A stretch of DNA of 29,737 nucleotides. It comes from a virus. The stretch spans positions 1-29,737 of the IMG/VR virus record IMGVR_UViG_3300030294_000134. One strand, 5' to 3'. This document shows positions 1 to 29,737 of the stretch, one piece after another; the stretch's first letter is position 1; every line of letters begins with the position of its first letter. The notes below the pieces were generated by a model. It saw only the letters and a list, made by a program, of their open reading frames with translations. It ran no database searches and was not told where the DNA came from. Made by a program: the position numbers and the translations under genes.

Positions 1-41
1 GATTAGATTTAAGTTTACTTTCATAAATAATTTATAAGAAT

Positions 42-638
42 ATGAACAACATCAATGAAAAATTAGTCGCCCGAGGCGATATTACAGCTAAATTCTACGA
101 TCAAAGAACTTTGACCGGATGGGAAAAAGCCTACAATTTGAGTTTACTCGCTTTGAGGTCATCCATTCTCCCCGTTCTTTCGGGGATTAAAAGGGTCAAT
201 TTTCTTGAGTGGTTTGGTAGTCAATACCGCCTCGGCACGATGACATTTTGTGACGAACATAAAAATGTTATTTGCAATAATGGTTTCTCGGCAGTCACAA
301 AAAGATTAGTCGGTGATTTTACTTATACCGGAGAAATTACAAAAGCCGCTTTGGGAACTGGTGTCGGTTCAGCATCCGCATCGGACACTCAACTAATTAC
401 AGAGGCATATCGAAATGATGTCATCTCGGGTTCTGCTCTTGGCAACATCGCTTATCTAACTGTTTTATTTACAGAGGCAGAATGTTCCGGCACTTATAAA
501 GAATTCGGAAATTTTATTGATGGTTTGGCCGGTGTTAATACTGGAATGTTATGGTCACATCTTGCAGGATTAAATTGGGCAAAAGATTTACAGACCGCTT
601 TAGTTATTTCTTGCAAATATACTTTGGTCAGTGCTTAA
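42..638 (+). CDS. Tail-fibre/baseplate-like structural protein
   Basis: 198 residues, no signal peptide or membrane segment. I do not recognise a named family with certainty. The middle part (about residues 70-190) is rich in short beta-type segments with Gly/Ser/Ala turns and aromatic patches (LWSHLAGLNW near 169-178), typical of phage tail-tip or receptor-binding subunits. It has no cysteine pattern suggesting an enzyme. It lies just before another fibre-like gene (942-2216) and before the lysis cassette, which is where siphovirus distal tail genes normally end. The start ATG follows an AT-rich leader without Shine-Dalgarno sequence, as for most genes here. Role as a virion protein is inferred from composition and position. 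Confidence 0.55.
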   Translation: MNNINEKLVARGDITAKFYDQRTLTGWEKAYNLSLLALRSSILPVLSGIKRVNFLEWFGSQYRLGTMTFCDEHKNVICNNGFSAVTKRLVGDFTYTGEITKAALGTGVGSASASDTQLITEAYRNDVISGSALGNIAYLTVLFTEAECSGTYKEFGNFIDGLAGVNTGMLWSHLAGLNWAKDLQTALVISCKYTLVSA

Positions 639-653
639 AAAATGTGCTAAAAT
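625..653 (+). promoter_or_regulatory. Predicted late-class promoter before 660-929
   Basis: A TGCTAAAAT extended -10 box (TAAAAT at 648-653) with a weak -35 TGGTCA at 625-630 and 17-bp spacing. It is a variant of the GTGCTATAAT box repeated before other late genes in this window. The predicted start of transcription falls at about 660, the A of the next ATG, so the mRNA would be leaderless or nearly so. Confidence 0.45.
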
Positions 654-659
654 AAAACT

Positions 660-929
660 ATGAGTAATATAAAAACAACATCAGAAAAATTACCAAACGG
701 AAAAATGATTTTGTCGGTTGATATTGAAGTCAATGATGAGGGCGAGGCTTGTAATATTGTTAGCCTAATGGCTATCGATTATGTTTTACTTGGTGCAAAA
801 GTCAATGATAAAAAAGAAAAGTTCAATGCTGAAAATTTACCATTCCAATTTCTAAAAGATAACTCAAAAGATAATAAAAAATATCGCGATGTTTTAAGAG
901 AGAGGGGCTTAAAAAACGATGAAGAATAA
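660..929 (+). CDS. Small hypothetical protein in tail-fibre region
   Basis: 89 residues, charged, with an N-terminal beta-type half (about 1-45) and a Lys/Asp/Asn-rich C-terminal half (46-89). No motif, signal peptide or membrane segment is visible, and I recognise no family. It sits between two fibre-like genes, 21 nt after the first and 12 nt before the second. It may therefore be a small tail-associated or chaperone-like protein, but nothing in the sequence proves it. A promoter-like box lies directly upstream, with its predicted start at the ATG. Confidence 0.5.
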   Translation: MSNIKTTSEKLPNGKMILSVDIEVNDEGEACNIVSLMAIDYVLLGAKVNDKKEKFNAENLPFQFLKDNSKDNKKYRDVLRERGLKNDEE

Positions 930-941
930 TTTTACAAAAAT

Positions 942-2216
942 ATGGGATTAGCAAAATACATCTTTGCAAAAAAAGAAAAATTACCTGCTGAAAATGTTTG
1001 CTCTATCAACCCCGATAGCGTGCAACCTCAAGCATCTGGTTTTTTAACTGGTGGCATCAATCCGTCTATCGTTTCAGTTTTTACTGCATTGGCTAGGTCG
1101 GGAGATAACGGAAAATTCAAAATAAATATAGATGGAATTGTTTGGGACAATATTTCTCCTCAATTTTTAATCGTTGGCACTAATACTTCAATGGGTTATG
1201 CCGCCGGTGCTGACTCTTATACTGGTGATACGATCACAGGAACATATTGTATTTTTCAAACATTTACAGTCGGTGCTAGTGATATGAAACTTACAACCGG
1301 TGGTATTTTAGGAATGAATGCGAATGCCGGTAATACTGAGGCCTTTATCGCCACCACAGTCGCAAATGCCCCCGCAGTCGTTTTGGGAACAGTTGTTGCG
1401 GGAAATGGTGACTATTCTAATACCGGAGATTTTACATCTTTGAATATTGTTTTATCGGCAGGTGTTAAATACGCAATCGGTGTTAGAAAGACAACCGGTT
1501 CGGCAAATATAAGAAACAACAGTTTGGGGGGTGCTTATAAGGGCGTTTATAGTGGGGGCATTTTGTCTGGCATGAATGCTTGGGGAGGTATAAATTTTAC
1601 CGTCAATGGTCAACCTCTAACTGCTCTATCTACAAGTTTAATCGCATCGCAGGTTCAGGCGGCCATTCGTGCTGTCACCGGCAAAACTGAAACAGTCGCA
1701 TATTCTACAAATAAATATATTATAACATCCTCCACTCTTGGTCGTGCATCTAAGATTTTGAAACTAATGACACCATCAGCAGGAACGGACATCTCGGGAA
1801 ATAATGCCACTCTATATTTAGATTGTGGAAATAATGCAATCGAGTCTGCCGGAACTGGTGAGGAATATAATTTACCAAGACTAAACAATGAGGGTGTCTT
1901 GGCTGTTCCGATCAAGAACAATATGCAGGTCGGCACTACCTACACATTGGCGTTAATCGATGCTTTCAAGTATGTCGTTCTAACAAATGCATCTGCCATC
2001 GCTGTCACCATCCCAACTAATTCGGTCGTTGCTTTCCCTATAGGAACTGAAATCTATTTAATTCAAGGAGGTGCGGGAAAAGTAACTCTTTCCGGTGCAG
2101 GAGTCACCATCAATTCTTTATCAAGTTATAAGTCGATAGCCGGTGCAGGAGGACAAGCGACATTGATTAAAATTGCGACTGATACATGGCAACTCTACGG
2201 AAATTTAATCGCCTAG
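942..2216 (+). CDS. Receptor-binding/tail fibre protein
   Basis: 424 residues, low in charge, rich in Gly, Ala, Thr, Ser and Asn, and predicted almost wholly beta. The last 110 residues (from about 315) form a module of the kind common at the C-terminus of phage tail fibres, a beta-sandwich with repeated short strands and an ending WQLYGNLIA. The central part (about 50-240) resembles lectin-like or jelly-roll surface modules. No enzymatic motif is seen. The ATG at 942 follows the 660-929 gene by 12 nt, so both are probably co-transcribed. This is likely the host-recognition protein or a virion decoration. The assignment rests on composition and location rather than on a conserved signature. 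Confidence 0.6.
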   Translation: MGLAKYIFAKKEKLPAENVCSINPDSVQPQASGFLTGGINPSIVSVFTALARSGDNGKFKINIDGIVWDNISPQFLIVGTNTSMGYAAGADSYTGDTITGTYCIFQTFTVGASDMKLTTGGILGMNANAGNTEAFIATTVANAPAVVLGTVVAGNGDYSNTGDFTSLNIVLSAGVKYAIGVRKTTGSANIRNNSLGGAYKGVYSGGILSGMNAWGGINFTVNGQPLTALSTSLIASQVQAAIRAVTGKTETVAYSTNKYIITSSTLGRASKILKLMTPSAGTDISGNNATLYLDCGNNAIESAGTGEEYNLPRLNNEGVLAVPIKNNMQVGTTYTLALIDAFKYVVLTNASAIAVTIPTNSVVAFPIGTEIYLIQGGAGKVTLSGAGVTINSLSSYKSIAGAGGQATLIKIATDTWQLYGNLIA

Positions 2217-2222
2217 TCGTTT

Positions 2223-3050: not shown

Positions 3051-3488
3051 ATGCATGTAAAAGAGGCGTGGGAATATTCGTTTATTTCAATCACATCTAA
3101 TTTTAAGGTTAAGGCGATTATCTCAATAGTGGGAGGCTACCTCTTTTCTTGCATTGGTTATGATGCAGTCATCATCGAAGTCCTTGCTTGGCTCGTAGTT
3201 ATTGATTGGATTTTTGGCACAGCAAATGCGATCAGAAGAAAAAAATTTACATCGTGGAAATTTTCTAAGGTGTTTTATAAATTCTTTTTCTATTTATTGC
3301 TTTTGATAATGGCTCATCAATCTCAAAAACTTTCTTTGATGCCGGAGTGGTTCGATGATGTTGTTGAATGGTTCATCGCTATCACTGAAATAAAAAGCAT
3401 CTTGGAGAATTCGGCCCTACTAGGATTTAAGGCCGCTAAAAAAATCGAGGCAAAGATAAATGATTTGCTCGAAGAAAAATTTAATTAA
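3051..3488 (+). CDS. Phage holin, phage_holin_4-type
   Basis: 145 residues from ATG 3051; an in-frame ATG at 3015 would add 12 residues and overlap the previous gene. The pattern IDWIFGTANAIRRKKFTSWK, then a hydrophobic helix (FYKFFFYLLLLIMAH), then ITEIKSILENSALLG, matches the order in the phage_holin_4 family (D-x-x-x-G...A, K-hydrophobic helix, E-x-x-S-I-x-E-N). Three to four hydrophobic segments are visible (about 17-38, 40-60, 75-95). Such proteins form the inner-membrane lesion that triggers lysis. It stands between two further small membrane proteins and a papain-like peptidase, giving a compact lysis group. The stop codon abuts the next ATG. Confidence 0.75.
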   Translation: MHVKEAWEYSFISITSNFKVKAIISIVGGYLFSCIGYDAVIIEVLAWLVVIDWIFGTANAIRRKKFTSWKFSKVFYKFFFYLLLLIMAHQSQKLSLMPEWFDDVVEWFIAITEIKSILENSALLGFKAAKKIEAKINDLLEEKFN

Positions 3489-3592: not shown

Positions 3593-4744
3593 ATGCAGGA
3601 CAAAGATTTAGAATTAAACATCGAGGGGAAATTTATCGGGGGTGTTATGCCTCAAGAAGACGATGCTCGTGATTTTGCGTTCACGGCAGTCGCACCCTTT
3701 GATTGGAAAATGGGATTTGATATTAGAAAGGTCTTAGCAGTTCGAGAAATCTGCAAAGACCAAGAAGAATTTTTCGGAACTCGTGGCCGGAATGGTTGGG
3801 GGGTCGAGAGATACAAGGAAATTATAAAAATATTTAATGATAAGAAATTAAGGCCCTATAAGATACCGGTCAAAAATCAAGGCTCATCCGGTTCTTGCAC
3901 GGGTCAAGCACTCGCCTATTATTTAGAGGTTTTGAATTTCATTGAAACTGGCGAATGGGTCAAGATTTCTGCTCGGGATGTTTATGCTTATACCTCTATC
4001 GGGTTCGGTAAAGGTGGCTATCTCCGTGATGCCCTCAAATTGGCCGTAGAGAGGGGCATCGGCTCGGAGGACTTAGTTCCGTGTTATGACACCTTTAAGC
4101 TGTCTGATGGCAGTTTGGTGGTCAATGCGATGACAGAAACGGAGTATCTCGTTAAACCAATCGAGTCACCGGAACTAATCGCTGTCAGAAAGTCGCTACA
4201 AGGCAAGGAATATCGTTCTATCGCAGGAAGTGGAAAGGAGTTGATGGATGTGATGGCATGGGCGATGTTGTTGGGTCTTGGAAACTATTTCGCGGTCAAT
4301 GGCGAGAACAATGGCACTTGGCAATCAGAATACCCAAAACCGCCAGTCGGTTCGGGGAAATGGGGTCACGCATTATTCGCCGGTGTCGCTGAATTAGATG
4401 GTGACGGAAAACCTTACATCGGAGATTTGAATTCGTGGGGGAATGATACCGGTGTCGATGGATGGCAAAAATTAAAAGAGGATTATTTTATTACTAATAA
4501 TATTCAAAGCCCTTGGACTTATATCGACAAGGACAATAACTATAACAATATGGCTAAAGCAAATGTTAAAATCATCAAAGATAAAAATTCACCTGCTGTC
4601 GGAATTTGGCTACCTGCATTATCACCTCAAGCATTAGAAAGTCTTTGCTTAAATTTCGGAATTGAAACACCGAAATTGCCCGATGGTTCTATTGATTGGA
4701 AAAGTTGGGTTGATGGAGAACTTACGATCACAAAGGCCTCCTAG
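3593..4744 (+). CDS. Papain-like (C1) cysteine peptidase
   Basis: 383 residues from ATG 3593. The frame is open back to 3500, but that part overlaps the micro membrane gene. The papain catalytic set is intact: oxyanion Gln96 and nucleophile Cys102 in VKNQGSSGSCTGQA (residues 93-106), His259 in KWGHALF, and Asn280 in DLNSWGND followed by GW. There is no signal peptide and no pro-domain like that of eukaryotic papains. Residues 1-90 form an N-terminal extension and about 320-383 a short C-terminal domain with Pro-rich turns. The gene directly follows holin-type genes, so it may cleave cell-wall or surface peptides during lysis or entry, or be a virion or maturation protease. The substrate cannot be told. 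It is followed by a strong terminator. Confidence 0.85.
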   Translation: MQDKDLELNIEGKFIGGVMPQEDDARDFAFTAVAPFDWKMGFDIRKVLAVREICKDQEEFFGTRGRNGWGVERYKEIIKIFNDKKLRPYKIPVKNQGSSGSCTGQALAYYLEVLNFIETGEWVKISARDVYAYTSIGFGKGGYLRDALKLAVERGIGSEDLVPCYDTFKLSDGSLVVNAMTETEYLVKPIESPELIAVRKSLQGKEYRSIAGSGKELMDVMAWAMLLGLGNYFAVNGENNGTWQSEYPKPPVGSGKWGHALFAGVAELDGDGKPYIGDLNSWGNDTGVDGWQKLKEDYFITNNIQSPWTYIDKDNNYNNMAKANVKIIKDKNSPAVGIWLPALSPQALESLCLNFGIETPKLPDGSIDWKSWVDGELTITKAS

Positions 4745-5865: not shown

Positions 5866-6135
5866 ATGATTAACCACGATCAAGAAATTGAAAAAATGGC
5901 TCACCCTGAAAACTTTGACCATTCGATTGAGGATGCAGAAAGAGAGGATGAAAGAAAAGCAATTAAGGAGGATGCTCAAAAAAAGTTATTCAAAGAAATT
6001 TATGGGGCGATGATTGATAATAAATACTCGGATTTGAGTGAACAGGAAATCGCTAACACCTGCCTCGGGGTTCTAACTCTTTATAAGAATAAATTTCTAG
6101 GTTATGCGAGGGGCGTTGATTTATCACAAGACTAG
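5866..6135 (+). CDS. Small hypothetical acidic protein
   Basis: 89 residues with an acidic, highly charged N-terminal half (EDAEREDERKAIKEDAQKK) likely helical, and a C-terminal half with EQEIANTCLGVLTLYKNKF. No family recognised. It lies in the early operon, 6 nt after the previous gene, and ends with TAG two bases before the next ATG. Confidence 0.55.
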   Translation: MINHDQEIEKMAHPENFDHSIEDAEREDERKAIKEDAQKKLFKEIYGAMIDNKYSDLSEQEIANTCLGVLTLYKNKFLGYARGVDLSQD

Positions 6136-6458: not shown

Positions 6459-7070
6459 ATGAAATCAAGAATTCAAAAACAAAAAAGAGAGCAGTTGAAA
6501 AAACAAATCGGCTTATTGCTAATAGTTGGATTGATTGCCGGAATGGTTGTTAATTGTTTCTCGATTAGATTGACTCAGGAAATGAGTCAGTTGAACCAAA
6601 CCTCAATCACGATGCCTAAGCATCAAGAGGAAACGAATATCAAGGAGGACATCAAAAAGGTTGAGGATGCTACTGTCGATGACATGGGTGTCGCAATCAA
6701 GAATGCCTCAAAGGAGTTTAATGTTCCGGAGTGGTTATTGCTTGGCATCGCAAATGCTGAGAGTGGGATGGGAAAATATTTCTATAAAGAATACGATCGT
6801 GAAAATTGCCATAACTGGTGGGGTCTAAAGGGTGGCAATATGGTCAACAGAAATGATGGGAGTTATTTGAGATGCTTTGTTGATGAGTCGGCCGGTGCGA
6901 GAACTATGGCCAAGACATTGAGAAATTATTATTTAGATGAGGGGAAGGACGATGCGATGAAGATTTGCCAAAAATGGATTGGCGCGAAATTCGCAAATAA
7001 GAAAGATGCCAATGGTTTGACCCATTGCACAAACTGGGTTTCAAATGTTAATAAATATAAAAATCTTTAA
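6459..7070 (+). CDS. Membrane-anchored lysozyme-fold endolysin
   Basis: 203 residues from ATG 6459; an earlier in-frame start at 6417 overlaps the previous gene. Residues 1-15 are basic and 16-34 hydrophobic (IGLLLIVGLIAGMVVNCFSI), a signal anchor. A Lys/Glu-rich linker (about 50-80) precedes a lysozyme-like domain: EFNVPEWLLLGIANAESGMG with candidate catalytic Glu101, NWWGLKGG (119-126), and a C-terminal half with SAGARTMAKTLRNYY. This order is that of soluble lytic transglycosylase/glucosaminidase-type hydrolases that cut the glycan strand. An N-terminal anchor with little charge after it resembles SAR endolysins, which are exported and released on membrane collapse. It is about 2.4 kb from the holin group, within small early-type genes, so an entry or exclusion role is also possible. 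Confidence 0.75.
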   Translation: MKSRIQKQKREQLKKQIGLLLIVGLIAGMVVNCFSIRLTQEMSQLNQTSITMPKHQEETNIKEDIKKVEDATVDDMGVAIKNASKEFNVPEWLLLGIANAESGMGKYFYKEYDRENCHNWWGLKGGNMVNRNDGSYLRCFVDESAGARTMAKTLRNYYLDEGKDDAMKICQKWIGAKFANKKDANGLTHCTNWVSNVNKYKNL

Positions 7071-7728: not shown

Positions 7729-8097
7729 ATGGAATTCACTAAAAAAGAAGATTTGGAAAAATTACAACCAAGTCTATTGGTTCGAGAGGCGGATTTAATT
7801 ATCAAATTTGTTAATGAGGCTCGTGAGCAGTTGAAAGTTATTAAGAATTTACTTGATAGCCACGAGGGTCAAACTGGCCAAAGGTTTTATGAGGGCGATT
7901 TACTGATGGAGTCCGATCGTGAAATGTTAAAAAAGGCTATTGGTTATATTGTTGCATTAGATGAAGTGACCGAAGAAAAGATTGATGAGTGGAGAACATC
8001 ATCGGATTTAATTTTAGAGATTGGGGATTTCTATAACCTCATCGAAAATGACAATGAATTACGACCCTATTTATCGGGGAAAAATAGTGTTGCGTAG
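7729..8097 (+). CDS. Hypothetical helical protein
   Basis: 122 residues from ATG 7729. Almost wholly helical and charged: FTKKEDLEKLQPSLLVREAD, ADLIIKFVNEAREQLKVIKN and TEEKIDEWRTSSDLILEIGD. No family recognised. Last gene of the early operon; its stop at 8097 overlaps the next promoter region. Confidence 0.55.
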   Translation: MEFTKKEDLEKLQPSLLVREADLIIKFVNEAREQLKVIKNLLDSHEGQTGQRFYEGDLLMESDREMLKKAIGYIVALDEVTEEKIDEWRTSSDLILEIGDFYNLIENDNELRPYLSGKNSVA

Positions 8098-8417: not shown

Positions 8418-9314
8418 ATGACTAAGGTCAAGGCAAAAGCAGTTGTTAAAAAAACTGCTAAGAAGAAAACTGTGCAGGTCAAACCAGTTTCTTCAAACAA
8501 GGAGGGTAGAGTTCACGAGGGGGAGATGATTGTTTTTAGTCCGGTTAATCCTAGCCAGTCTTTCGTGGTGGCATCGGAGATGGCGGATGATGATGCAATC
8601 GAGGCCGAATTAACAGGCAAGGCAGTCGAGAGTTATGTTTACTCATTCAAGGAGGGCGGAAAGACTGTCACCGGTCTTACTGTTTCGGGAGTCAATGAGA
8701 TGGCCCGATTACTTACCAAGAAAAAAGACTCGGGGATTAAAATTCGCATCGTTCCCGATAGTATTAAAATAGACACAAATGCCGAACAAGAGGGTCAAAA
8801 GGGAATTAGTGTCATCTTAATTGCGGAGAATATGTTATCGGGTGAAACTGCTATCGGTGCTAAGTTCGAACCATTCACAAAGAAAGGCGGAAAGAGTGGC
8901 AACTACCCAAATTCTTTCGCATTAGAAAAGGCAGTCAGTAAGGCTGAAAGAAATGCTAAAAGAAAATTGATACCGGAAAAGGTCGCAATCGAAATGATAA
9001 ACAAATTTATCAAGACGAGTGGTTCAACTGAATTGCCATCACAACCTCAAATCGGGTCGCATGGTTTTATACCAAGCACCACCAAAGAAATCGCACCAGT
9101 CGATTACTACACGAAGTTAATCACTATGATTGCTAAGGAGTGTAATGTTAAAATAATCAACGGAACAATCTCAAAAGAAGATGGCAAGAAGATGATTGAG
9201 AAGTTTAATGATTTAACGGGGTCGCAGTTGGCAAGTTTCAAACTAACTCAAGATGAGGCAAAGGGTTTATTATTCGATTTATTGAATTGCCCAGTCTTTA
9301 TCAATAAGAAATAA
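8418..9314 (+). CDS. Candidate Rad52-like ssDNA annealing protein
   Basis: 298 residues. Residues 1-20 are a Lys/Ala/Val-rich tail. Residues about 60-200 form one domain with beta segments (VESYVYSFKEGGKTVTGLTV, then GISVILIAENMLSGETAIGA) and a conserved-looking helix NSFALEKAVSKAERNAKRKL. That beta-sheet plus Ala/Lys helix recalls Rad52/ERF-type annealing proteins. The C-terminal 70 residues form a separate helical domain. The next gene is a PD-(D/E)XK exonuclease, and phage annealing proteins and exonucleases usually travel in pairs. The family call is inference; the sequence does not carry a signature I can name firmly. It may also be another phage recombination or helicase-loading factor. 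Confidence 0.55.
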   Translation: MTKVKAKAVVKKTAKKKTVQVKPVSSNKEGRVHEGEMIVFSPVNPSQSFVVASEMADDDAIEAELTGKAVESYVYSFKEGGKTVTGLTVSGVNEMARLLTKKKDSGIKIRIVPDSIKIDTNAEQEGQKGISVILIAENMLSGETAIGAKFEPFTKKGGKSGNYPNSFALEKAVSKAERNAKRKLIPEKVAIEMINKFIKTSGSTELPSQPQIGSHGFIPSTTKEIAPVDYYTKLITMIAKECNVKIINGTISKEDGKKMIEKFNDLTGSQLASFKLTQDEAKGLLFDLLNCPVFINKK

Positions 9315-9318: not shown

Positions 9319-10101
9319 ATGGCTAAATTAGAGAAGATACCAACTCGCACATTTACACTTTACGATGGCAGGGTCACAATCGATTTCTATGAGAAATACG
9401 GAAATTATAAGCATGTCTATATTCGCCGAGATAATGGAGAATGGCTCAAGTCGGTCACTAAGGCAATAAGCATTCTAAATAAACCCGCCTTAATCCCTTG
9501 GGCTTGTAAAATGATGGAGGAAAAAATCTTTTTCATCCTTGATACAATCGGAAAGATTACTCGGCCAGATATTACGATGGCGAAAAATGCTCATCGGGAA
9601 TTCAAAGACAAGGCGGCCGATAAGGGAACAATGGCTCACGATCTAATTAGTGAATATATAAAATTCAAACTAAAAGAGATTAAGAAGATGCCACCGATGC
9701 CGGAGGATGATGAAGTTAAAAATTGCTATCTCGCATTTAGAGATTGGGAAACTACTCACAAAGTCAAGTTCGTTTCAACTGAAAAATTGGTCTATTCGGA
9801 AAAATATAATTTCGTTGGAACTCTTGATTGTGTGGCCATCGTTGATGGGGAATTCTGTTTAATCGATTTTAAGACCTCAAACGGAATTTACCACGATTAT
9901 ATTTATCAAGTTAGTGGTTATGGAATTGCTTACGAAGAAGAATTGAAAAAAACTTTTGACCGGAACTGGATTGTTCGTTTCGGTAAAGACACAGGAGAGT
10001 TCGAGGCTAAGCCTTTTCAAACCGATGCCAAACTTCAAAAGGCTTTCCTCTCTTGTTTATATTTAGTGATGATTGAGGATGATGTTAAAAAATTATTATA
10101 A
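9319..10101 (+). CDS. PD-(D/E)XK exonuclease, RecB/Cas4-like
   Basis: 260 residues. Helix with His107 (GTMAHDLISEYI), Asp170 in FVGTLDCVAIVDG, then Asp183 and Lys185 in LIDFKTS, and Gln197/Tyr201 in YQVSGYGIAYEEE (QxxxY). This is the complete order of the RecB/Cas4-like nuclease family. No Cys cluster is present, so no iron-sulphur centre as in Cas4. The enzyme likely degrades 5' or 3' strands to make single-stranded DNA for the neighbouring annealing protein. The ATG follows the upstream stop by 4 nt. Confidence 0.88.
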   Translation: MAKLEKIPTRTFTLYDGRVTIDFYEKYGNYKHVYIRRDNGEWLKSVTKAISILNKPALIPWACKMMEEKIFFILDTIGKITRPDITMAKNAHREFKDKAADKGTMAHDLISEYIKFKLKEIKKMPPMPEDDEVKNCYLAFRDWETTHKVKFVSTEKLVYSEKYNFVGTLDCVAIVDGEFCLIDFKTSNGIYHDYIYQVSGYGIAYEEELKKTFDRNWIVRFGKDTGEFEAKPFQTDAKLQKAFLSCLYLVMIEDDVKKLL

Positions 10102-16322: not shown

Positions 16323-16469
16323 GTGGTATGTGCTGAAAAAAATAGATATTCAAAAAAAGATGCGATCTATAAAGTTCATCACATCAAAAAGAAGTTCGGG
16401 AGAATAGTCCGGTGCTATCATTGTTTTCAATGTAATATGTGGCATCTAACTCATAAACAAAAAACTTAA
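16323..16469 (+). CDS. Small zinc-finger protein, GTG start
   Basis: 48 residues from a GTG start at 16323. It runs VVCAEKNRYSKKDAIYKVHH to CYHCFQCNMWHLTHK. Cys at residue 3 and Cys31, Cys34, Cys37, plus His41 (WHLTHK), form a zinc-ribbon-like layout. This resembles a recurring small phage zinc protein with a basic middle and a C-x-x-C...WHLT ending. The frame is open upstream to 16296 without ATG, so GTG is the best start. The role is probably nucleic-acid binding. The family likeness comes from memory of such proteins. Confidence 0.6.
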   Translation: MVCAEKNRYSKKDAIYKVHHIKKKFGRIVRCYHCFQCNMWHLTHKQKT

Positions 16470-16474
16470 AAATT

Positions 16475-18501: not shown

Positions 18502-19884
18502 ATGAAAGAATGCAACTGGGAACAAACAATCAAACAAGAGGAGGCTTGGCAATGCCTGTTAGATGATATGACAACCGAGTTGTTGTTTGGTGGTGGGGCA
18601 GGAGGGGGCAAATCTCGTCTTGGTGTATCGTGGATTATTTTAATGTGTGGAATGTATCCCGAAACAAGATGGTTGATTGGTCGTAAAAAATTAAAGAGAT
18701 TAAAGGAAACAACATTGAGAACTTTCTTTCAAGTTTGTCGAGAGTGGGGATTGAAAGCCGGTGTTGATTATAAATATAACTCATCAGATAGCATCATCAC
18801 CTTTCGGGGTGGTGCTGAAATATTATTAAAAGACTTGGCTCATCAACCATCCGACCCAGAATATGATGAACTCGGTTCTCTTGAATTGACTGGCGGTTTC
18901 GTTGATGAAGTCGGCCAGATTTCTTTTAAGTGTTGGTCAATCTTGACTTCTCGTATTAGATACAATCTCGATAAATACGGATTGACCCCTAAACTTCTCG
19001 GGTCTTGTAATCCTACAAAGGAATGGCCCTATTCGGAATTCTACAAACCCGATAAAGATGGGAAGTTAGAGACACATAAAAAGTTTATTAAAGCATTGGC
19101 GGCAGATAATAAGTTTTTGAGTTCGAGTTATATAACTCAGTTGACTAAGATTAAGGACAAGGCAACTCGAGAGAGATTGCTCAATGGTAATTGGGAATAC
19201 GATGACGACCCATCAATCTTGTTTTCATTCGAGGTTATTCAAGACCTATTCACCACTAAGGTCGAAGATAAGAGCAACAGGTTCATCACTGGTGATGTTT
19301 CTCGCAAAGGTCGAGATAATATGCCCATTGGTCTATGGCATGGCTTACAACTGATTAAGGTGGCAATGATACCCTATGAGATAAGGTCATCGACCAAGAA
19401 ATCAGCCGAGTGGATTATGAAGTTTGCTCAAAAGCACAATGTTCGCTTTTCGCATATCGTTCTTGATGAGGATGGGGTCGGTGGCGGTGTTGTCGATAAC
19501 ATCCCGGGATGCATTGGTTTCTTAAATGGCAGTTCCGCATTCTTAACCAAAGACGAGAAACGAAGAAAGGCAAAAGGAGAATATTATATCAATTTCGGAA
19601 ATCTAAAAACTCAATGCTATTTTAAGATGGCCGAATTAGCAGAGGCCGGAGAGATTGGCATCAATGAAGATGCTTTTGCTAGTGATGAGGACAAACAAGA
19701 TTTCATCGAGGAAATGGGTCAAGTAAAACAAAGAGATACCGACAAGGATGGCACAGTTTATTTGGTTGATAAGAAAACAGTCAAACAGAATATTGGACGA
19801 TCACCGGATTTCTCCGATATGGCTATGATGAGAATGCGTTTCATTGTTAAGCCAAGAGTTGCCATTGACATTATTGATTTATAG
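18502..19884 (+). CDS. terL: Terminase large subunit
   Basis: 460 residues. Walker A is GGGAGGGKS (30-38), Walker B GGFVDEVGQ with Asp135/Glu136, coupling motif LGSCNPT (166-172). The RNase H-like nuclease domain carries Asp265 (FITGDVS), Asp322 (IVLDEDGVGGG) and Asp436/Asp439 (GRSPDFSDM), so both ATPase and endonuclease sites are intact. TerL pumps DNA into the prohead through the portal and cuts the concatemer. The ATG follows an AAAAGGA site inside terS. Confidence 0.95.
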   Translation: MKECNWEQTIKQEEAWQCLLDDMTTELLFGGGAGGGKSRLGVSWIILMCGMYPETRWLIGRKKLKRLKETTLRTFFQVCREWGLKAGVDYKYNSSDSIITFRGGAEILLKDLAHQPSDPEYDELGSLELTGGFVDEVGQISFKCWSILTSRIRYNLDKYGLTPKLLGSCNPTKEWPYSEFYKPDKDGKLETHKKFIKALAADNKFLSSSYITQLTKIKDKATRERLLNGNWEYDDDPSILFSFEVIQDLFTTKVEDKSNRFITGDVSRKGRDNMPIGLWHGLQLIKVAMIPYEIRSSTKKSAEWIMKFAQKHNVRFSHIVLDEDGVGGGVVDNIPGCIGFLNGSSAFLTKDEKRRKAKGEYYINFGNLKTQCYFKMAELAEAGEIGINEDAFASDEDKQDFIEEMGQVKQRDTDKDGTVYLVDKKTVKQNIGRSPDFSDMAMMRMRFIVKPRVAIDIIDL

Positions 19885-19946: not shown

Positions 19947-21359
19947 ATGGGATTTATTGAAAAATTTTTCAACCGGACAGAGAAGAAAAGCGTTCCTTTG
20001 TCTTTTTTTTATAACTCGGGCATTTTGAATTCAATCATCACTCGAAGTGATGCTCTTGATTTCTACAAGTCTTGGGTTTATGCCTGTGTCGCAAAGCGGT
20101 CATCGGGTTTGGCTCAAATAGAATTTAAGTTATATCAATTAAAGGCCGGAAAGGTCGTTGAATTGTTAGAACACCAATTATTGGATTTGCTCTATCGTGT
20201 TAATCCGGAAACTACTAAATACAATTTCTTTCAGTTGTCGGCTATCTATCGTGATTTATTGGGTGCGTCCCCTTGGATTTTAGAGAAAGTAAACCCATCG
20301 GACAAAGTGCCTACAAATATGTATTTGGCTAGACCAGAATATTTCAAGGTTAGGAGAGATGCTCAAGGACTTATCACCGGTTATAATTATACTATTGGCT
20401 CATTCAATAAAGATTATACAGTTGATGAGGTTATTTTTTTAAGAAACTACAACCCACAAAATCCTGATGTTGGGATGGGCATCATCGAGGCAGTCAGACA
20501 GACCGCTGAAAATGATGATTATATTTTACAGAGCAACAATTCTCTTTTGAAGAATGGTGCTCGGCCTACTGGTTATTTGGAAACAGATGAAACCTTAACC
20601 AAGTCGGAGATTAAAAGATTAGAAAAGAAAGGCAAGAATAAATGGGCCGGTCTTGAGAATGTTGGCAGACTTCAAATTCTACAAGGTGGTCTAAAATTCA
20701 AAGCCGATATTATTTCACCAAAAGATTTGGATTATATTCAAGGCAGAGGAATGAACAGAGATGAAATTGCGGCCGTGTTCGGTGTTCCAAAATCTCTTTT
20801 AACTTTTGATGATGTTAATCGTGCCTCCGCATCTACCGGAGAATATCAATTTAATAAATGGACTCTTGAGCCAATCGCAACAGAATGGATTGAACAGTTG
20901 AATGAGTTTCTTGTTCCTAAGTTCGGTTCGGATTTATGGTTAGATTTCGACTCATTGGCTAAGGAGGATGAGGATTTAGAATTAAGAAAGAACACCGAGT
21001 CTTGGAATAAGTGGAGAACTATAAATGAAATTCGTGAATGTGATGGCGATTTGCCTCTTGAGGGTGGTGATTATATTTATATGCCTATAATGTCAGTTCC
21101 TGCCATTGGTGGTGTTCAAAAGAAATCAGCAGAAACTATCATCAAAGTTGGTTCGGCCACTAATCACGATCTAAATATTCAACAGGTTGATAGAAAGACC
21201 GCGAGAAAAGTTCTCAAGAGAGTTTCGTTGAGAAATTTCCGCACAAATAAGATGGCCAACGATGTGACCGAAAAGATGATGAGTAAATTAAGAGATAAGA
21301 ATTCAGTCGTGTTGAAAATCGTTAGTGACGAAAGTAAAAAAAAAAATCCTTTAGTCTAA
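19947..21359 (+). CDS. HK97-type portal protein
   Basis: 470 residues, HK97 portal length (about 400-470). The pattern WVYACVAKRSSGLAQIEFKL, YRDLLGASPWILEK, FLRNYNPQNPDVGMGIIEAV, NGARPTGYLETDETLTKSEI and MNRDEIAAVFGVPKSLLTFD is the classic order of the phage portal family. Twelve copies form the ring through which DNA enters. The C-terminus ends in KKKNPLV after an 11-A run at 21336-21346, which also lies in a second reading frame continuing into the next gene. Confidence 0.93.
   Translation: MGFIEKFFNRTEKKSVPLSFFYNSGILNSIITRSDALDFYKSWVYACVAKRSSGLAQIEFKLYQLKAGKVVELLEHQLLDLLYRVNPETTKYNFFQLSAIYRDLLGASPWILEKVNPSDKVPTNMYLARPEYFKVRRDAQGLITGYNYTIGSFNKDYTVDEVIFLRNYNPQNPDVGMGIIEAVRQTAENDDYILQSNNSLLKNGARPTGYLETDETLTKSEIKRLEKKGKNKWAGLENVGRLQILQGGLKFKADIISPKDLDYIQGRGMNRDEIAAVFGVPKSLLTFDDVNRASASTGEYQFNKWTLEPIATEWIEQLNEFLVPKFGSDLWLDFDSLAKEDEDLELRKNTESWNKWRTINEIRECDGDLPLEGGDYIYMPIMSVPAIGGVQKKSAETIIKVGSATNHDLNIQQVDRKTARKVLKRVSLRNFRTNKMANDVTEKMMSKLRDKNSVVLKIVSDESKKKNPLV
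21336..21346 (+). promoter_or_regulatory. A11 slippery run linking portal and MuF-like gene
   Basis: Eleven consecutive A in the portal frame (AGT AAA AAA AAA AAT). A -1 shift inside the run changes CCT TTA GTC TAA to TCC TTT AGT CTA and reads straight into the next gene, whose frame is open from 21338. A fusion of portal and gp7/MuF-like protein would follow, by ribosomal frameshift or polymerase slippage. Confidence 0.5.
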
Positions 21360-21394
21360 CCGATGACCAAAAAGAATTGTTCTATAAGTCGAGA

Positions 21395-22042
21395 ATGTCG
21401 GAGGAGAAATTATTAGAAGATAAATGGATTGGAGATTTCAAAAGTTTCTTCAAAGACCAAGAGAAAAGATTTATCACTAAATTAAAAGACCATAAGAAAA
21501 GTGCTATCGGAGATTTGGGAATTGATGTCGAGGATGAACTACAAGCCACGATCACAATCATCGACCCATTGATTTATGCCACCGTGATGCAAGGAATTAA
21601 ACAGGCATCGGATTTATTACAACAACCATATATCGCAGACCTTGATTTCTTAAAGGCTTGGATTGCTAAAGTTAGTGAGGAGATTGGAACAGTTATCAAT
21701 AACACAACTATCGATGCTTTCAATTCGTCATTAACTATCGGCCTTGAGTCGGGTGAGGGAATTGCTGATTTAACAAAGAGAGTTTCGGAAGTGTTTGACT
21801 TTGCTACTGATACAAGAGCCACGATGATTGCTCGAACTGAAACGGCAAGAGGAATTGCAGAGGCCCATCGTCAAACTTACGATTATTATGGCTATGAGCA
21901 TGTTGATTGGTTGACCTATGATGCTTGTGACGAATGTATTTCTAAGAGTTTACAGAAATGGACAGTCGATACTATTGCCGGAGAGATACCAGTTCATCCA
22001 AATTGCAAATGTGATTTCGTTCCGTCAGTAAATAATCAATAA
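21395..22042 (+). CDS. SPP1 gp7/MuF-like head morphogenesis protein
   Basis: 215 residues from ATG 21395, the first ATG in frame. A TTG at 21377 is the only earlier possible start; the frame is open from 21338. The N-terminal 90 residues are helical. Residues about 120-210 carry the gp7/MuF-type signature: LTKRVSEVFDFATDTRATMI, ARTETARGIAEAHR, DACDECISKSLQKW and VHPNCKCDFVP, with the Cys-rich HPNCxC end. Members sit with portal and capsid and are ejected or help assembly. Because of the A-run upstream it may also be made as part of a portal fusion. Confidence 0.85.
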   Translation: MSEEKLLEDKWIGDFKSFFKDQEKRFITKLKDHKKSAIGDLGIDVEDELQATITIIDPLIYATVMQGIKQASDLLQQPYIADLDFLKAWIAKVSEEIGTVINNTTIDAFNSSLTIGLESGEGIADLTKRVSEVFDFATDTRATMIARTETARGIAEAHRQTYDYYGYEHVDWLTYDACDECISKSLQKWTVDTIAGEIPVHPNCKCDFVPSVNNQ

Positions 22043-22107: not shown

Positions 22108-22974
22108 ATGGACAATAAAAATCACGCAGAGGCAAAAAAGGATTTCAAGTTATCGGGCATCAAGTTCAAAATACTTTCGACTGAGGAGGCCGGAGGTGAG
22201 GGAATTATTGAGGCCTATGTTTCTATTTTTAACAATGTTGATTTAGTGGGTGATATTATTCAGCAAGGTGCATTCGCCGAGTCATTGATGAAGAAACTTC
22301 CTAAAGGAGTTTGGTCACATGATTGGCAAGCACCTATTGCTTTAACCCTTGAGGCTCGTGAGGATGCTAAGGGCTTATATATTAAAGGACAGTTCATCTT
22401 AACAGTTCAAAAAGCACAAGAGGCTTACGATCTAATTAAAGCCGGTGTCATCGATGAGTTTTCAATCGGGTTTAGAGTTCTTGATGATGAGTGGAAAGAA
22501 GATGGCACTCGTGTCATCACTAAAGCAAGACTTTACGAATGGTCACCAGTTTTAGTCGGTGCTAACCCAGACACAGAATTGATTTCAGTCAAATCCGGTG
22601 AAGATGCCGAAGAAGAAACAGAGGAAGAGGTTATCGAACCAATCCCACCTGTTGAAGAAGTCATCCCCGTTGTTGCTGAGGAAGTAGTAAAGGAAGTTGT
22701 TGAAGAAGAAAAGGCTATCGAGAAAGTTAAGCATGATTTAGAAAAAGGCGTTGTCATTCTTTCGTTTACTGTCAAAGGTGAAACCATAACGGAAGAAATT
22801 AAAATGAGTGATAATTTTATTAAATACTTAAGAGAGAAGAAAGCTCTCAAAAAAAAGGTCGACACTAATAATGGAGAGGGCGATGCAACCCGAAAAATTC
22901 TCCGTATTAGACAAGTTGCTCTGCAACAAAAATCCTCAGCCGAGTATGTGCTAAGGATTACTAATAAAAAATAA
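22108..22974 (+). CDS. HK97-type prohead protease with acidic scaffold-like tail
   Basis: 288 residues from ATG 22108. His71 (GVWSHDWQAP) and Ser119 (EFSIGF) fit the U35-type prohead protease His-Ser pair, with Glu144 (LYEWSPV) in the usual third place. The core is about 165 residues. Then follows a long acidic stretch (about 167-215, rich in Glu/Val/Pro), then a more basic C-terminus (KKALKKKVDT). This long tail is unlike the short protease of HK97 and could act as scaffold during capsid assembly. The next gene is the major capsid protein. Confidence 0.85.
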   Translation: MDNKNHAEAKKDFKLSGIKFKILSTEEAGGEGIIEAYVSIFNNVDLVGDIIQQGAFAESLMKKLPKGVWSHDWQAPIALTLEAREDAKGLYIKGQFILTVQKAQEAYDLIKAGVIDEFSIGFRVLDDEWKEDGTRVITKARLYEWSPVLVGANPDTELISVKSGEDAEEETEEEVIEPIPPVEEVIPVVAEEVVKEVVEEEKAIEKVKHDLEKGVVILSFTVKGETITEEIKMSDNFIKYLREKKALKKKVDTNNGEGDATRKILRIRQVALQQKSSAEYVLRITNKK

Positions 22975-24341: not shown

Positions 24342-25808
24342 ATGATGGTATTAGCTAAATATTTGAAAGGTCACGATCTATTCGTTCCCGGAGATATTCG
24401 AGGGATGGAATTGAGTGAGTTCAAGATATTGGCTAATAAAAAGATTGTTGAAGAAACTACTATCGCCGATGAGTGGAAAGGTAGCACCGAGAGAATGAGT
24501 CTAAAAGGTTTTAACATATTGGGTAAGAAATACCGCACCGATTTCATTGATGTGGTCATTCCTACAAAGGACATTGAGAATGTTAAGAGTTTAGAAGTTC
24601 TTAAAAAAGCCGAGAAGTCCGGTTCAATCTCTTTGAATATTATTGAGAGAAGTTTCAATGATAGAGTCGGGGGATTTGCTAAGGCTTGTAATGATGGTGC
24701 TAAGTTAAATTCTGCTCTTGGAGAATATATTTTATTTTTGAATGATGATGTTGAGGTCGGCACTAATTTTTTTGCCGACCTTTTATTACCTTTCAAGGAT
24801 GAGAGTGTTGCCATGGTTGGGGCCGATTGTTCGAGGTTAAATACTTCGGTCAATGGTTCGGTTCTATGTGTTCGGAGAGAAGTGTTCGAGAGTGTCGGGG
24901 GTTTCGATGAAGATTATTTCTTTATGTGGGAGGACAATGATTTATGCCAAAACATAAAGAGGCGAGGATGGAAAATTGAAATCTCAAAAGCTGAAGCCAA
25001 ACACGAGGGGAAAGACAGTTTGAATAATGGTTCGGAGTTTTGGAGAACTAATTACTTTAATGGAAAAAATAAGTTTGATGCTAAATGGATGAACGGCCAA
25101 AGAGTTATCGGTTCAATGATTGTCGGGAATGAGTCGGGTCGTTATATGTCGAGAGTCATCACTGATTTATTCAAAAGAAATTTAATCGATGAGATGGTTG
25201 TCGTATGTGATGATAGTGACCCAGAAACTATTGCGGAATTAGATGCATTGAAAAAGTTTTACCCGATTGATATTAAAGTGCATGAGTTCAAGTTATTCGG
25301 AGAGGCTGAAAATATATTAAGAGAGAGGTCGATTGATTATGCGATCAGTAAAAATCCATTCGGGATTATACCAATCGATGCTGATGAGTTCCTTGATGAA
25401 GAATTATCGAGGAAAGAAATAATTGAATTGTTGAATAAAGGTGTCGGGTGGGATTTTCCTATCGTGCATTTTTGGGGAGATGAAAAGAAGTGTCGAGTCG
25501 ATGGAGTATTTGGTCATCAAAAGAATGTCAGACTGTTCCGGTATTTACCAGATAGGAGTCAAAAGTTCTTTGAGAAAAACCTACATTGTGGCTCTTGCCC
25601 GATTTATGGCTACTCTGCTCGAAAGACGACTAAATTCGTCTTGAAACATCTCGGGTATGTTCGACCCATCGATATTCAAGCCAAGAAAGAAAGACAACTC
25701 AAGCATGACCCTAAAATGTTGCTCGAGGATGCCACCTTATACGAAAAGATGGTGCGAGAGGGAGAATGTCGGGAGTTTAGTAAAGAGGAGTTCCTTAAAG
25801 GGTGGTAA
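24342..25808 (+). CDS. Two-domain GT2 glycosyltransferase fused to GDIRG unit
   Basis: 488 residues. Residues 4-40 repeat the unit of the previous gene (LKGHDLFVPGDIRGMELSEF). Residues 67-225 are a GT2 domain: FIDVVIPTKDIENVKSLEVL, YILFLNDDVEVG (Asp135-136), GGFDEDYFFMWEDNDL (Glu197-Asp198), with His221 near the end. Residues 254-360 begin a second GT-A domain: RVIGSMIVGNESGRYMSRVI and GIIPIDADEFLDEE with DAD (346-348). The C-terminus has HCGSCPIYGYS and HLGYVRP. It sits inside the head operon, so it may glycosylate capsid or tail protein, or modify the host surface. Donor and acceptor cannot be told. Confidence 0.85.
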   Translation: MMVLAKYLKGHDLFVPGDIRGMELSEFKILANKKIVEETTIADEWKGSTERMSLKGFNILGKKYRTDFIDVVIPTKDIENVKSLEVLKKAEKSGSISLNIIERSFNDRVGGFAKACNDGAKLNSALGEYILFLNDDVEVGTNFFADLLLPFKDESVAMVGADCSRLNTSVNGSVLCVRREVFESVGGFDEDYFFMWEDNDLCQNIKRRGWKIEISKAEAKHEGKDSLNNGSEFWRTNYFNGKNKFDAKWMNGQRVIGSMIVGNESGRYMSRVITDLFKRNLIDEMVVVCDDSDPETIAELDALKKFYPIDIKVHEFKLFGEAENILRERSIDYAISKNPFGIIPIDADEFLDEELSRKEIIELLNKGVGWDFPIVHFWGDEKKCRVDGVFGHQKNVRLFRYLPDRSQKFFEKNLHCGSCPIYGYSARKTTKFVLKHLGYVRPIDIQAKKERQLKHDPKMLLEDATLYEKMVREGECREFSKEEFLKGW

Positions 25809-26544: not shown

Positions 26545-26844
26545 ATGAGATTTATTTTTGATAAAACAATAACAGTCGAGAGGCCATTGCTTTACGATTA
26601 CCACGAAAAATATATTGTGCATGGAACTATTCAAGGAATAATCCTACCGATAAAAGCAGAGGACATGATGCTCACAGATGGAACACCCGGCAAGGCCTTG
26701 AAATTACTTTGCAATATCGACCAAGATTTGAAAGAGGCTGACAGGATTTCTTATGATGGAGATTATTATACAGTTAAAGCGATCAGAAAGTTTGAGATAG
26801 GTAGCCTCGCAAGAATTGAGGCATTCATCTATCAAAACCAATAA
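26545..26844 (+). CDS. Head-tail joining/stopper protein
   Basis: 99 residues, beta-rich: FDKTITVERPLLYDYHEKYI, GTIQGIILPIKAEDMM and RISYDGDYYTVKAIRKFE. This size, the small barrel pattern and the place between connector and gp10-like gene fit the head closure/stopper proteins (SPP1 gp16/HK97 gp9-like). Sequence alone is weak. Confidence 0.65.
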   Translation: MRFIFDKTITVERPLLYDYHEKYIVHGTIQGIILPIKAEDMMLTDGTPGKALKLLCNIDQDLKEADRISYDGDYYTVKAIRKFEIGSLARIEAFIYQNQ

Positions 26845-27937: not shown

Positions 27938-28918
27938 ATGAGTGAAGTATTAAAAAGAAAATTTCAAATCGGTGTCGGTAAAGAAACAGTTAGAGGCACA
28001 GTTGCGACCCCTGCTATTTGGTTAAAACCATTGACTCAAGACATCCAAGATAAAATGGAAGTCAAGGCAACTGAAAGAGCAATGGGCGTGATTGAAGATA
28101 GTGATGAACAAGTTGTCATCAAAAGATTATCGGGTGGAAAGATTACCGGTGAAGTGATGGACAAATCAATCGGTTATTTTTTACTCGGTGCGTTGGGTCA
28201 AGTGAATTCTGCTGCTCAAGTAGCACCAAATGCTTTGGCTTACGATCATACTTTTTCCGTTTTACAATCTGCTAAGCATCCAACCTTATCAATCGATGTG
28301 AAGAAAGATGACATCGAGCATATGGTTTATGCTAATAGTGTCGTTGATAGTTTGAAATTAGATGCTAAAGTTGGTGACTATGTTAAGTTCGAGGTTGGAT
28401 TAAAAGGCAAAAAAGGTGTTGCCTCTGTCACAACCCCATCTCAAGTCGCTGAAAATATTTTCTTGGCTAAACATATTACTGCCGGAATTGCTGATACCTA
28501 TGCCGGTTTAAGTTCTCCAACCGCTATCGCTGTTAAAACTTTATCTCTTGATATTAACAAGAACATCGAAGATAAGGATTTGCTCGGTTTAGATGGCCCA
28601 TCCGATTTCTTAAATAAACAGTTAGTCATTGAGGGTTCATTAGAAATGATTTTTGAAAATACTACTGTTAGAGATTATGCATTAAACGGCACACAGAAAT
28701 CAATGATTATCACAATGGTGAATAGTGATGTCACAATCGCAACTTCTGCCAATCCTAAATTGGTCATTAAGTTGGCTAAAGTTAAATTCGGAGAACCGGT
28801 TGAGAGTGGTGACAATAATGATTTCGCCAAAGTGGTTGTTAAATTCAAAGCCTTTTATTCTACTGCTGATAGCAAGAGCATCGAGGCCATCCTTTCTAAC
28901 CTAACCACATCTTACTAA
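27938..28918 (+). CDS. Major tail (tube) protein
   Basis: 326 residues, beta-rich, with RKFQIGVGKETVRGTVATPA at the start, the middle domain LKLDAKVGDYVKFEVGLKG and an end of PKLVIKLAKVKFGEPVESGD. This is the layout of siphovirus tube proteins of the large, two-domain kind. It follows the tail completion genes and precedes a strong terminator and the tail chaperone, the standard order. The leader CTCTAAAAAAAT before its ATG resembles that of other highly expressed structural genes. Confidence 0.8.
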   Translation: MSEVLKRKFQIGVGKETVRGTVATPAIWLKPLTQDIQDKMEVKATERAMGVIEDSDEQVVIKRLSGGKITGEVMDKSIGYFLLGALGQVNSAAQVAPNALAYDHTFSVLQSAKHPTLSIDVKKDDIEHMVYANSVVDSLKLDAKVGDYVKFEVGLKGKKGVASVTTPSQVAENIFLAKHITAGIADTYAGLSSPTAIAVKTLSLDINKNIEDKDLLGLDGPSDFLNKQLVIEGSLEMIFENTTVRDYALNGTQKSMIITMVNSDVTIATSANPKLVIKLAKVKFGEPVESGDNNDFAKVVVKFKAFYSTADSKSIEAILSNLTTSY

Positions 28919-28926
28919 GCCAAATC

Positions 28927-28951
28927 GGGGGAGGTAATCCCTCCCCCTTTT
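28927..28951 (+). terminator. Rho-independent terminator after major tail gene
   Basis: GGGGGAGG (28927-28934) pairs with CCTCCCCC (28940-28947), loop TAATC, followed by TTTTATTTAT. A strong, classical terminator that may separate high tube expression from the tail assembly genes. Confidence 0.9.
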
Positions 28952-28977
28952 ATTTATAAACTAAGATTAAAAAATCT

Positions 28978-29307
28978 ATGCAGGTCAAATTATCAAATGG
29001 TGAGGCAACAGTTAAAGAATTCGTCACTCGTAAATTAAAAAAAGAAATCAACCGAGCTATGTTTCAAGGTGTTGACTCCGAGATGGAAGTCGATGCATCT
29101 AATAATGGCGGAAACAAGCAATCAATGAAAGGATTTAATGTCGTGAATATGGATGCGGCTAATGATATTGCTTTATTGGGCATGGTTGAAAAGATTACGA
29201 TCAGCGGAGAAGATAAACCAATCACTCAATCCACTTTCGATGAAATGAATTCGGATGATGCTAATACTATTATCGATGCCATTAACGAGATTTCGAAAAA
29301 AAAATAG
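28978..29307 (+). CDS. Tail assembly chaperone, short form (G-like)
   Basis: 109 residues. No motif, but place between major tail protein and tape measure, size, and a slippery A-run near its end fit the gpG-like tail assembly chaperone. N-terminal part MQVKLSNGEATVKEFVTRKL, centre with MFQGVDSEMEVDASNNG and a C-terminal helix NTIIDAINEISKKK. It would coat the tape measure protein during tail assembly. Confidence 0.75.
   Translation: MQVKLSNGEATVKEFVTRKLKKEINRAMFQGVDSEMEVDASNNGGNKQSMKGFNVVNMDAANDIALLGMVEKITISGEDKPITQSTFDEMNSDDANTIIDAINEISKKK
29296..29304 (+). promoter_or_regulatory. Frameshift slippery site of tail chaperone
   Basis: Nine A's in the frame AAA AAA AAA TAG. A -1 slip avoids the TAG and reads on into the T-frame open from 29286, as in lambda G/GT. 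Confidence 0.75.
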
Positions 29308-29510
29308 CAAACGAGATAGATGATTTCATCGGCACTTATCTCGTAGGAATAAATAGCGAACCACCGGATGATTACATTGATTATGTTCTATGTAAAAAAT
29401 TCCATTGGACACCTCAACAAATCGATGAGATGGATGACAATAAAATCGCCATATACTTGAAGTTTATGGAGATGGAACACAAAAAAGAAGTTCTCGATAA
29501 TCAAAAATAA
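29304..29510 (+). CDS. Tail chaperone extension (T part of G-T)
   Basis: Reading frame of 68 codons entered by -1 frameshift, starting IANEIDDFIGTYLVGIN and running on to EMEHKKEVLDNQK. It has no start codon of its own near the beginning (first ATG about 29426) and no Shine-Dalgarno, so it is made only as fusion to the 28978 protein. It contains helices and WTPQQIDEMDDNKIAIYLKF, as in other T-parts. It ends 6 nt before the tape measure gene. Confidence 0.75.
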   Translation: MANEIDDFIGTYLVGINSEPPDDYIDYVLCKKFHWTPQQIDEMDDNKIAIYLKFMEMEHKKEVLDNQK

Positions 29511-29516
29511 ATTTAT

Positions 29517-29737
29517 ATGGCAGATAAAAAGGATTTAACCATAGTCATCAAAGCAGTCAATGAGGCTCAAGCCGCTTTAAGAGAGGCTCAAGCTGATTTG
29601 GGTGGTGTCGAAACTAAGTCAAAGGGCCTAAATATAGGCCTTTTGGCGTTGGCGACATCGGCAATGTATATGGGCAAAAAGATGTGGGACTCATCGGAGG
29701 AGGCTATTCGTGGTCAGAACCAATTGAATGCTGTTCT
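29517..29737 (+). CDS. Tape measure protein, N-terminal part
   Basis: Starts ATG 29517 and runs off the window, so 73 codons are seen. MADKKDLTIVIKAVNEAQAA, repeated EAQA segments and a hydrophobic GLLALATSAMYMG fit the start of a tape measure protein, which sets tail length and lies next to the tail chaperone. A hairpin AAAGGGCCT-AAATAT-AGGCCTTTT (29621-29643) inside it looks like a terminator stem. Confidence 0.75.
   Translation, partial: MADKKDLTIVIKAVNEAQAALREAQADLGGVETKSKGLNIGLLALATSAMYMGKKMWDSSEEAIRGQNQLNAV

Follow-up and report, generated by a model that had tools for sequence, protein, structure and literature searches.

The stretch of DNA analysed here (the window) is IMG/VR record IMGVR_UViG_3300030294_000134, 29,737 bases from a tailed phage of Bacteroidota type. 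All of its GATC are found on the + strand within one short word, VCGATCD, in which T is barred from the position before CGATC and C from the position after GATC. The context rule is absolute in the window and is read on one strand around whole circular genomes; in a clade of related phages of single origin the word is enriched and evenly spaced, its positions turn over, and it is inherited along with the TAGT glycosyltransferase and a clade-specific module of Rad52-like, exonuclease, single-strand DNA-binding protein (SSB) and replication initiator genes. The pattern has the appearance of a DNA signal scattered along one strand, of a kind that has not been described previously.

A single GATC context on one strand

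The original prediction, made from the letters alone, had counted 25 GATC in the window, each preceded by C, with A (19), G (4) or C (2), and never T, before the C. These counts proved exact, and the positions it quoted hold to within one base (we count 99, 1232, 5878, 10563, 16364, 21550 and 29199). CGATCA occurs 16 times on the + strand and TGATCG never, likewise as claimed. The base following GATC is A in 16 sites, T in seven, G in two and C in none.

As a null for word counts we used a codon-preserving shuffle of the genes of the window (or of the relative concerned), the check that had been proposed for this claim. The shuffle also takes in the Asp-Gln codon choice (GAC CAA against GAT CAA) noted in that prediction. 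The shuffled genes do not reproduce the bias: they are expected to contain 33.8 AGATC, 26.5 GGATC and 30.8 TGATC, of which the window has none, as well as 6.2 TCGATC (none observed) and 30.8 GATCG (two observed, both within CGATCG). Altogether 109 GATC are expected in the window genes, 91 of them as AGATC, GGATC or TGATC; the genes hold 24, none of them in these three contexts, and the 25th is intergenic and lies outside the gene shuffle. Thus GATC outside VCGATC is at zero where shuffles predict about 80-110 GATC in total, while the permitted ACGATC is found 19 times against 5.2 expected. These counts, together with the spacing nulls given below, exclude chance, codon choice and base composition as the cause.

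The depletion of flanks is asymmetric under reverse complement, which is not what simple Type II avoidance would leave: DGATCG is absent where about 25 are expected, whereas CGATCG, legible on both strands, is permitted. The rule therefore inspects the + strand only, and a GATC is tolerated if that strand reads VCGATCD. CGATCC was seen only twice, both times in one relative (G005). Flanks beyond VCGATCD are low in information, and a longer consensus was rejected for this reason. The sites fall in frames 0, 1 and 2 and in intergenic DNA, so the signal is not codon-based. Since every predicted gene of the window is on the + strand (gene calls follow a simple longest-open-reading-frame rule and are uncurated), readings at the level of the DNA + strand and of the mRNA are inseparable here.

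Even spacing of the sites

The gaps between the 25 window sites have a coefficient of variation (CV) of 0.38, against 0.94 for random placement. For a stricter null, the same number of VCGATC sites was drawn 20,000 times from codon-shuffled genes; the null CV for the window is 1.08, and none of the 20,000 draws was equally even. The same holds for three relatives, G004 (CV 0.46), G007 (0.38) and G008 (0.61), each again with 0 of 20,000 draws as even, the null CV across the four genomes being 1.08-1.37. An overlapping contig, G002, closes the window genome into a circle of 34,167 bp, and the 4.4 kb absent from the window contribute two further VCGATC sites and no other GATC. On the complete circles of the clade (34.2, 33.9 and 34.3 kb) there are 27, 41 and 30 sites, on a single strand throughout, with CVs of 0.40, 0.46 and 0.41.

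When every 4-, 5- and 6-mer was scored for regular spacing across 42 genomes (relatives and controls), with no word chosen beforehand, the four highest ranks went to the four clade genomes, and the most regular word of each was CGATC or GATC. The gap distribution is cut in both tails, and a gamma distribution fits it better than a shifted exponential by 27 log units; no strict or fixed period was found. Simple Type II avoidance would leave its remaining sites randomly placed, but here the spacing is even while that of other palindromes is random. Close pairs of sites are rarer than chance, minimum gap and CV being far from the null both in the clade and in three distant relatives described below (G413, G416 and G417).

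Density and spacing, not positions, are maintained in related phages

The original prediction had asked for the analysis to be repeated on related phages, and the same one-strand rule was recovered in four relatives with 60-70% identical proteins: 41 of 42 GATC obey it in G004, 30 of 30 in G007, 39 of 43 in G008 and 38 of 47 in G005. On three short contigs of the clade the figures are 7/7, 4/4 and 9/9. CGATC exceeds the codon-shuffle expectation in G004 (38 against 11.1), G007 (27 against 5.4) and G008 (36 against 21.7), so that the word is both over-represented and strand-oriented, as a Chi-like signal would be. Site density in the clade is about 0.8-1.3 per kb. All clade sequences are metagenomic contigs, and DNA chemistry is outside their reach.

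Sites are shared at homologous codons in 7-36% of cases, compared with 12-21% for generic 5-mers. Being no better conserved than a generic 5-mer, the sites are maintained in density and spacing and not in position; density and spacing are re-established at new places after site loss. As positions are unshared, the spacing of the separate genomes is nearly independent evidence. Clade genomes carry 2, 7, 3, 15 and 14 copies of CGATCG, and VCGATC on the - strand, found 2-13 times per genome, always lies inside that palindrome; the word is in this respect not confined to one strand as strictly as a nick motif. The rule-breaking GATC of the relatives are almost all in unshared tail-region genes. 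They represent newly acquired DNA in which purging is incomplete, and their persistence there indicates that the phage survives an occasional GATC.

In a terminase tree the clade is monophyletic (support 100/98), with a pattern-free sister (L067) just outside. The sister phages G011 and G012 have head-tail genes in common with the clade but lack the pattern, the TAGT gene and the gene for a family 2 glycosyltransferase (GT2) alike. What distinguishes the clade from these unpatterned sisters is its own Rad52/exonuclease/SSB/initiator module, TAGT and the GT2 protein.

Other avoided words vary between relatives, which argues that the VCGATC rule is not a by-product of a common restriction avoidance. 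In the window, restriction-type words avoided (observed/expected) are GTAC (0/39), ACGT (0/37) and GAATC/GATTC (0/53), and further GGATA (0/36), GAAGG (1/40) and TTTAAA (0/27). Among G004, G007 and G008, TCGA, CATG, CTAG, GCGC and GAAGA are additionally avoided, in differing sets. In the same three genomes TGACGG/GACGGA stands 3-5 fold above codon expectation on the + strand with nearly none on the - strand, unevenly spaced.

GATC in distant relatives and candidate hosts

GATC is entirely missing from 30 (388 kb) of roughly 75 related loci, pointing to strong purging in the group; other loci use GATC without restraint, and in several it is maintained, evenly spaced, at about 0.75-1.3 per kb. 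The distant loci with even GATC (L204-L207 and L210, including G413, G416 and G417) use other flanks: G413 has DGATCH (CV 0.39), G416 has MGATCK (0.50) and G417 has a CV of 0.35, at a density of about 0.75/kb in these three. G414 and G415 likewise keep evenly spaced GATC with flanks different from those of the clade. The 15 non-clade loci with 0.3-1.5 GATC/kb space the word more regularly than chance would (Stouffer z -4.8), compared with an average deviation of about zero for ten further palindromes within that range of density. The one-strand VCGATC rule may thus be the special form that GATC-linked even spacing takes in the window clade.

Two bacterial genomes were compared with the phages, a Bacteroidia metagenome-assembled genome containing G007 and a Bacteroidota genome (G019), neither established as the true host. 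Both are free of strand bias, and G019 was rejected as a host genome sharing the oriented word, since ACGATC is equal on its two strands.

Genes accompanying the pattern

The large terminase of the window shares 46% identity with its counterpart in Flavobacterium phage 11b, and the window also encodes portal, capsid and tail proteins and a RusA-like resolvase besides the genes listed with the sites in Table 1. The 8418-9314 protein has no family matches. It is probably a new family of single-strand annealing proteins, to judge from its modelled fold, and a RAD52-like fold fits expectation at this place because the exonuclease gene adjoins. Neither the exonuclease nor the 11629-12330 protein has close homologues outside the clade in the collections searched, so the recombination module is inseparable from the pattern; the helical model of the 11629-12330 protein, of moderate confidence, was uninformative. 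A small protein encoded at 13366-13734 has an HNH-like Cys/His spacing on inspection of its sequence. Portal and Mu-F-like head protein are encoded by separate genes in the window (19947-22042), but by a single fused reading frame in G004, G005 and G007.

No protein of the clade is as well conserved as TAGT (76-85% identity). With the ParB-like protein TAGT forms a cassette (15560-17396 in the window) that recurs in Bacteroidota, Streptococcus and Microbacterium phages, sometimes with a UDP-glucose dehydrogenase (MK448727 14807-16158; PP763431 49109-51449; OP985602 48876-51271); in the window the pair lies directly upstream of the terminase genes, as it does in Streptococcus phage Javan291. 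No evenly spaced word was found in other phages with the pair (Javan291, Merry and Jefe). In the Microbacterium phages Merry and Jefe (L190, L191) AGCT is nearly gone, with 3-4 copies against about 100 expected, and GATC is common. TAGT alone was rejected as the cause of the pattern, which is missing from G013 and L064 even though they carry ParB and a 65-68% identical TAGT. The GT2 protein is found in every clade member, its gene sitting within the head-gene block; full-length homologues exist in other phages too (L163-L167), and as these do not have the pattern, GT2 alone was rejected as well.

Table 1. Positions in the window of the VCGATCD sites and of the genes discussed.
Feature	Position	Strand	Evidence	Remark
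Site 1	97..103	+	word count	
Site 2	1230..1236	+	word count	
Site 3	1908..1914	+	word count	
Site 4	3228..3234	+	word count	
Site 5	4724..4730	+	word count	
Site 6	5876..5882	+	word count	
Site 7	6793..6799	+	word count	CGATCG, legible on - too
Site 8	7913..7919	+	word count	CGATCG, legible on - too
Site 9	9638..9644	+	word count	
Site 10	10561..10567	+	word count	
Site 11	12028..12034	+	word count	
Site 12	12638..12644	+	word count	
Site 13	13897..13903	+	word count	
Site 14	16362..16368	+	word count	intergenic
Site 15	16827..16833	+	word count	within TAGT gene; G004 has a site at the homologous place
Site 16	18473..18479	+	word count	
Site 17	19797..19803	+	word count	
Site 18	21166..21172	+	word count	
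Site 19	21548..21554	+	word count	
Site 20	22427..22433	+	word count	
Site 21	24373..24379	+	word count	
Site 22	25341..25347	+	word count	
Site 23	26779..26785	+	word count	
Site 24	28242..28248	+	word count	
Site 25	29197..29203	+	word count	
Rad52-like single-strand annealing protein	8418..9314	+	Foldseek human RAD52 E 5.5e-5, prob 1.0; low-confidence model, pLDDT 58	candidate reader module
PD-(D/E)XK exonuclease	9319..10101	+	phrog_298 exonuclease E 2.9e-37	candidate reader module
Single-strand DNA-binding protein	11199..11624	+	PF00436 E 3.2e-31	
Replication initiator / DnaD-like helicase loader	14183..14902	+	phrog_19658 E 1.4e-19; phrog_186	
ParB-like protein	15560..16168	+	PF02195 E 3.1e-8; phrog_620	TAGT cassette partner
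TAGT DNA glycosyltransferase	16656..17396	+	PF20691 E 2.3e-16	
GT2 (family 2) glycosyltransferase	24342..25808	+	PF00535 E 5.7e-9	488 aa, apparently two GT domains

Comparison with known oriented words

Several phage systems share the one-strandedness of VCGATC (PMC3874151, PMC3517423, PMC11780129, PMC3784561), whereas no precedent for its even spacing was found. Chi sites, the signals of RecBCD/AddAB, are over-represented in phages that lack a RecBCD inhibitor and resemble VCGATC in being short, strand-oriented and dispersed (PMC3784561); VCGATC differs in its even spacing and in its embedding in an otherwise purged palindrome, and neither a reader enzyme nor, among the bacterial genomes examined, a host with the motif was found. 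In T7 (L192) the Chi octamer GCTGGTGG occurs seven times on one strand and not at all on the other, unevenly spaced, although T7 encodes a RecBCD inhibitor. The 36 EcoP15I sites of T7 all share a single orientation (PMC3874151), dozens of copies lying one way (36:0) as in the clade, but they are randomly placed (CV 1.01), whereas VCGATC is even, enriched and allowed in the two-way form CGATCG. The localized nick motifs of T5, phiKMV and tf are confined to one strand (PMC3517423, PMC11780129) and, like VCGATC, conserved in diverged relatives; tf, however, has 14 longer, unevenly spaced motifs (CV 0.83), and the clade 27-41 short, even words, some legible on both strands. Finally, other GATC contexts are at zero in the clade as in many relatives, which resembles restriction-site avoidance, but avoidance alone would leave no enriched, oriented and evenly spaced subset.

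Possible explanations

We tentatively favour, at somewhat short of an even chance, the explanation that + strand VCGATCD is a DNA signal on one strand whose scattered copies are interchangeable, kept at about one copy per 0.8-1.3 kb by two opposed selections and read by the replication/recombination machinery. GATC would be costly, most simply because the host cuts it, and functionless copies would be purged, as in the relatives without GATC. One + strand VCGATCD in roughly every kilobase would be beneficial, so that copies would be retained or newly made. The user would be the replication or recombination machinery of the phage working on one strand, which would take the word as a cue to pause or switch during end-processing, in the manner of Chi, or would use it as a priming or loading site. 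The set would be economical and evenly spaced because every additional copy costs, and strand-specific because a - strand copy is a cost without benefit, whereas CGATCG still holds a + copy. Cost, benefit and the identity of the reader are what we infer from these patterns, the machinery being the likeliest reader in view of the clade-specific module, TAGT and GT2 that set the clade apart from its unpatterned sisters.

Several observations weigh against this explanation. Even GATC spacing exists elsewhere, and in the distant evenly spaced lineages GATC counts fall below or close to expectation, without clear enrichment and with other flanks, suggesting that even spacing may stem from GATC itself and not from a reader of VCGATC. 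No host chromosome with the oriented pattern was found among the genomes examined, nor was a phage primase, a Chi-reading helicase-nuclease or any conserved structure flanking the sites; and the known Chi-type, nick and EcoP15I sites are unevenly spaced, as the T7 and tf controls show.

Part of the pattern may instead be produced by proximity-dependent restriction, the main rival, although as a full account we consider it rather unlikely. A host GATC nuclease that bridges two sites in the looping manner of Type IIE enzymes would tolerate isolated GATC and remove close pairs, and the clade flanks would be a poorly cut or protected context. Sau3AI, a GATC enzyme, loops DNA. Type IIE enzymes loop DNA and require an additional recognition sequence (PMC4081073). 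Such a nuclease would agree with GATC being the sole palindrome evenly spaced when rare in the non-clade loci, and with the even GATC of G413, G416 and G417 under differing flanks. It leaves unexplained, however, why VCGATC exceeds its codon-shuffle count, why very long gaps are so few and why a site with a palindromic core is so strictly one-stranded. Glycosylation is a more doubtful candidate: the ParB-like, TAGT and GT2 proteins would glycosylate phage DNA at + strand VCGATC, the sugar shielding GATC and its even placement protecting the genome or marking it for packaging. T-even-type phages use TAGT to put a second glucose on a modified cytosine (PMC13390438), and a shield of this kind would account for the survival of just these GATC; the conservation of TAGT, and the position of its cassette beside the terminase genes here and in Javan291 and its recurrence in Microbacterium phages, also speak for it. 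On the other hand, L064 and G013 use GATC freely and have no other evenly spaced word despite their ParB and TAGT, no methylase or hydroxylase able to make the acceptor base was found, and one copy per kb would be insufficient to block restriction generally.

The remaining mechanisms we regard as improbable to a greater degree. Programmed single-strand nick sites, of the kind known from T5, tf and phiKMV-like phages, would share their one-strandedness with VCGATC (tf 14:0) and could be served by the HNH-like protein, but CGATCG, which could be cut on both strands, is permitted and in G005 and G008 actually exceeds expectation, known nick motifs are unevenly spaced and G008 lacks a homologue of the HNH-like protein; we hold this to be quite improbable. 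Selection on RNA, by a host endoribonuclease cutting GAUC in mRNA except within VCGAUCD, fits the coincidence of mRNA sense and + strand, but predicts tolerance alone, neither enrichment nor even spacing, and many relatives purge GATC as a two-strand palindrome; its probability is very small. The original prediction had held simple palindrome restriction to be insufficient and one strand to be read, and this part stands; the RNA-cutting toxin or mutational process that it offered falls short on enrichment, spacing and turnover, because either would merely remove forbidden contexts, and the strand-specific mark it also named is possible. Least probable of all appears escape from a Type III-like restriction enzyme through uniform site orientation. 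The EcoP15I sites of T7 would be its model, but every clade member has CGATCG, which supplies both orientations, enrichment would be unexpected, and the T7 sites are random.

A broader reading, to which we give slightly less credence than to a one-strand signal read by the replication/recombination machinery, is that Bacteroidota phages use GATC-words as evenly spaced landmarks, about one per kb and selected irrespective of position, the valid flanks being specific to the lineage and, in the window clade, such that they define one strand. If true, phages would possess a type of signal not described in them before, one whose density is controlled across the whole genome. Oriented words are known in phages; a spacing-regulated word with turnover of positions, built on an otherwise forbidden palindrome, is not. 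The pattern offers a purely sequence-based handle on an unknown one-strand process acting per kilobase, or on a proximity-dependent restriction that shapes phage genomes.

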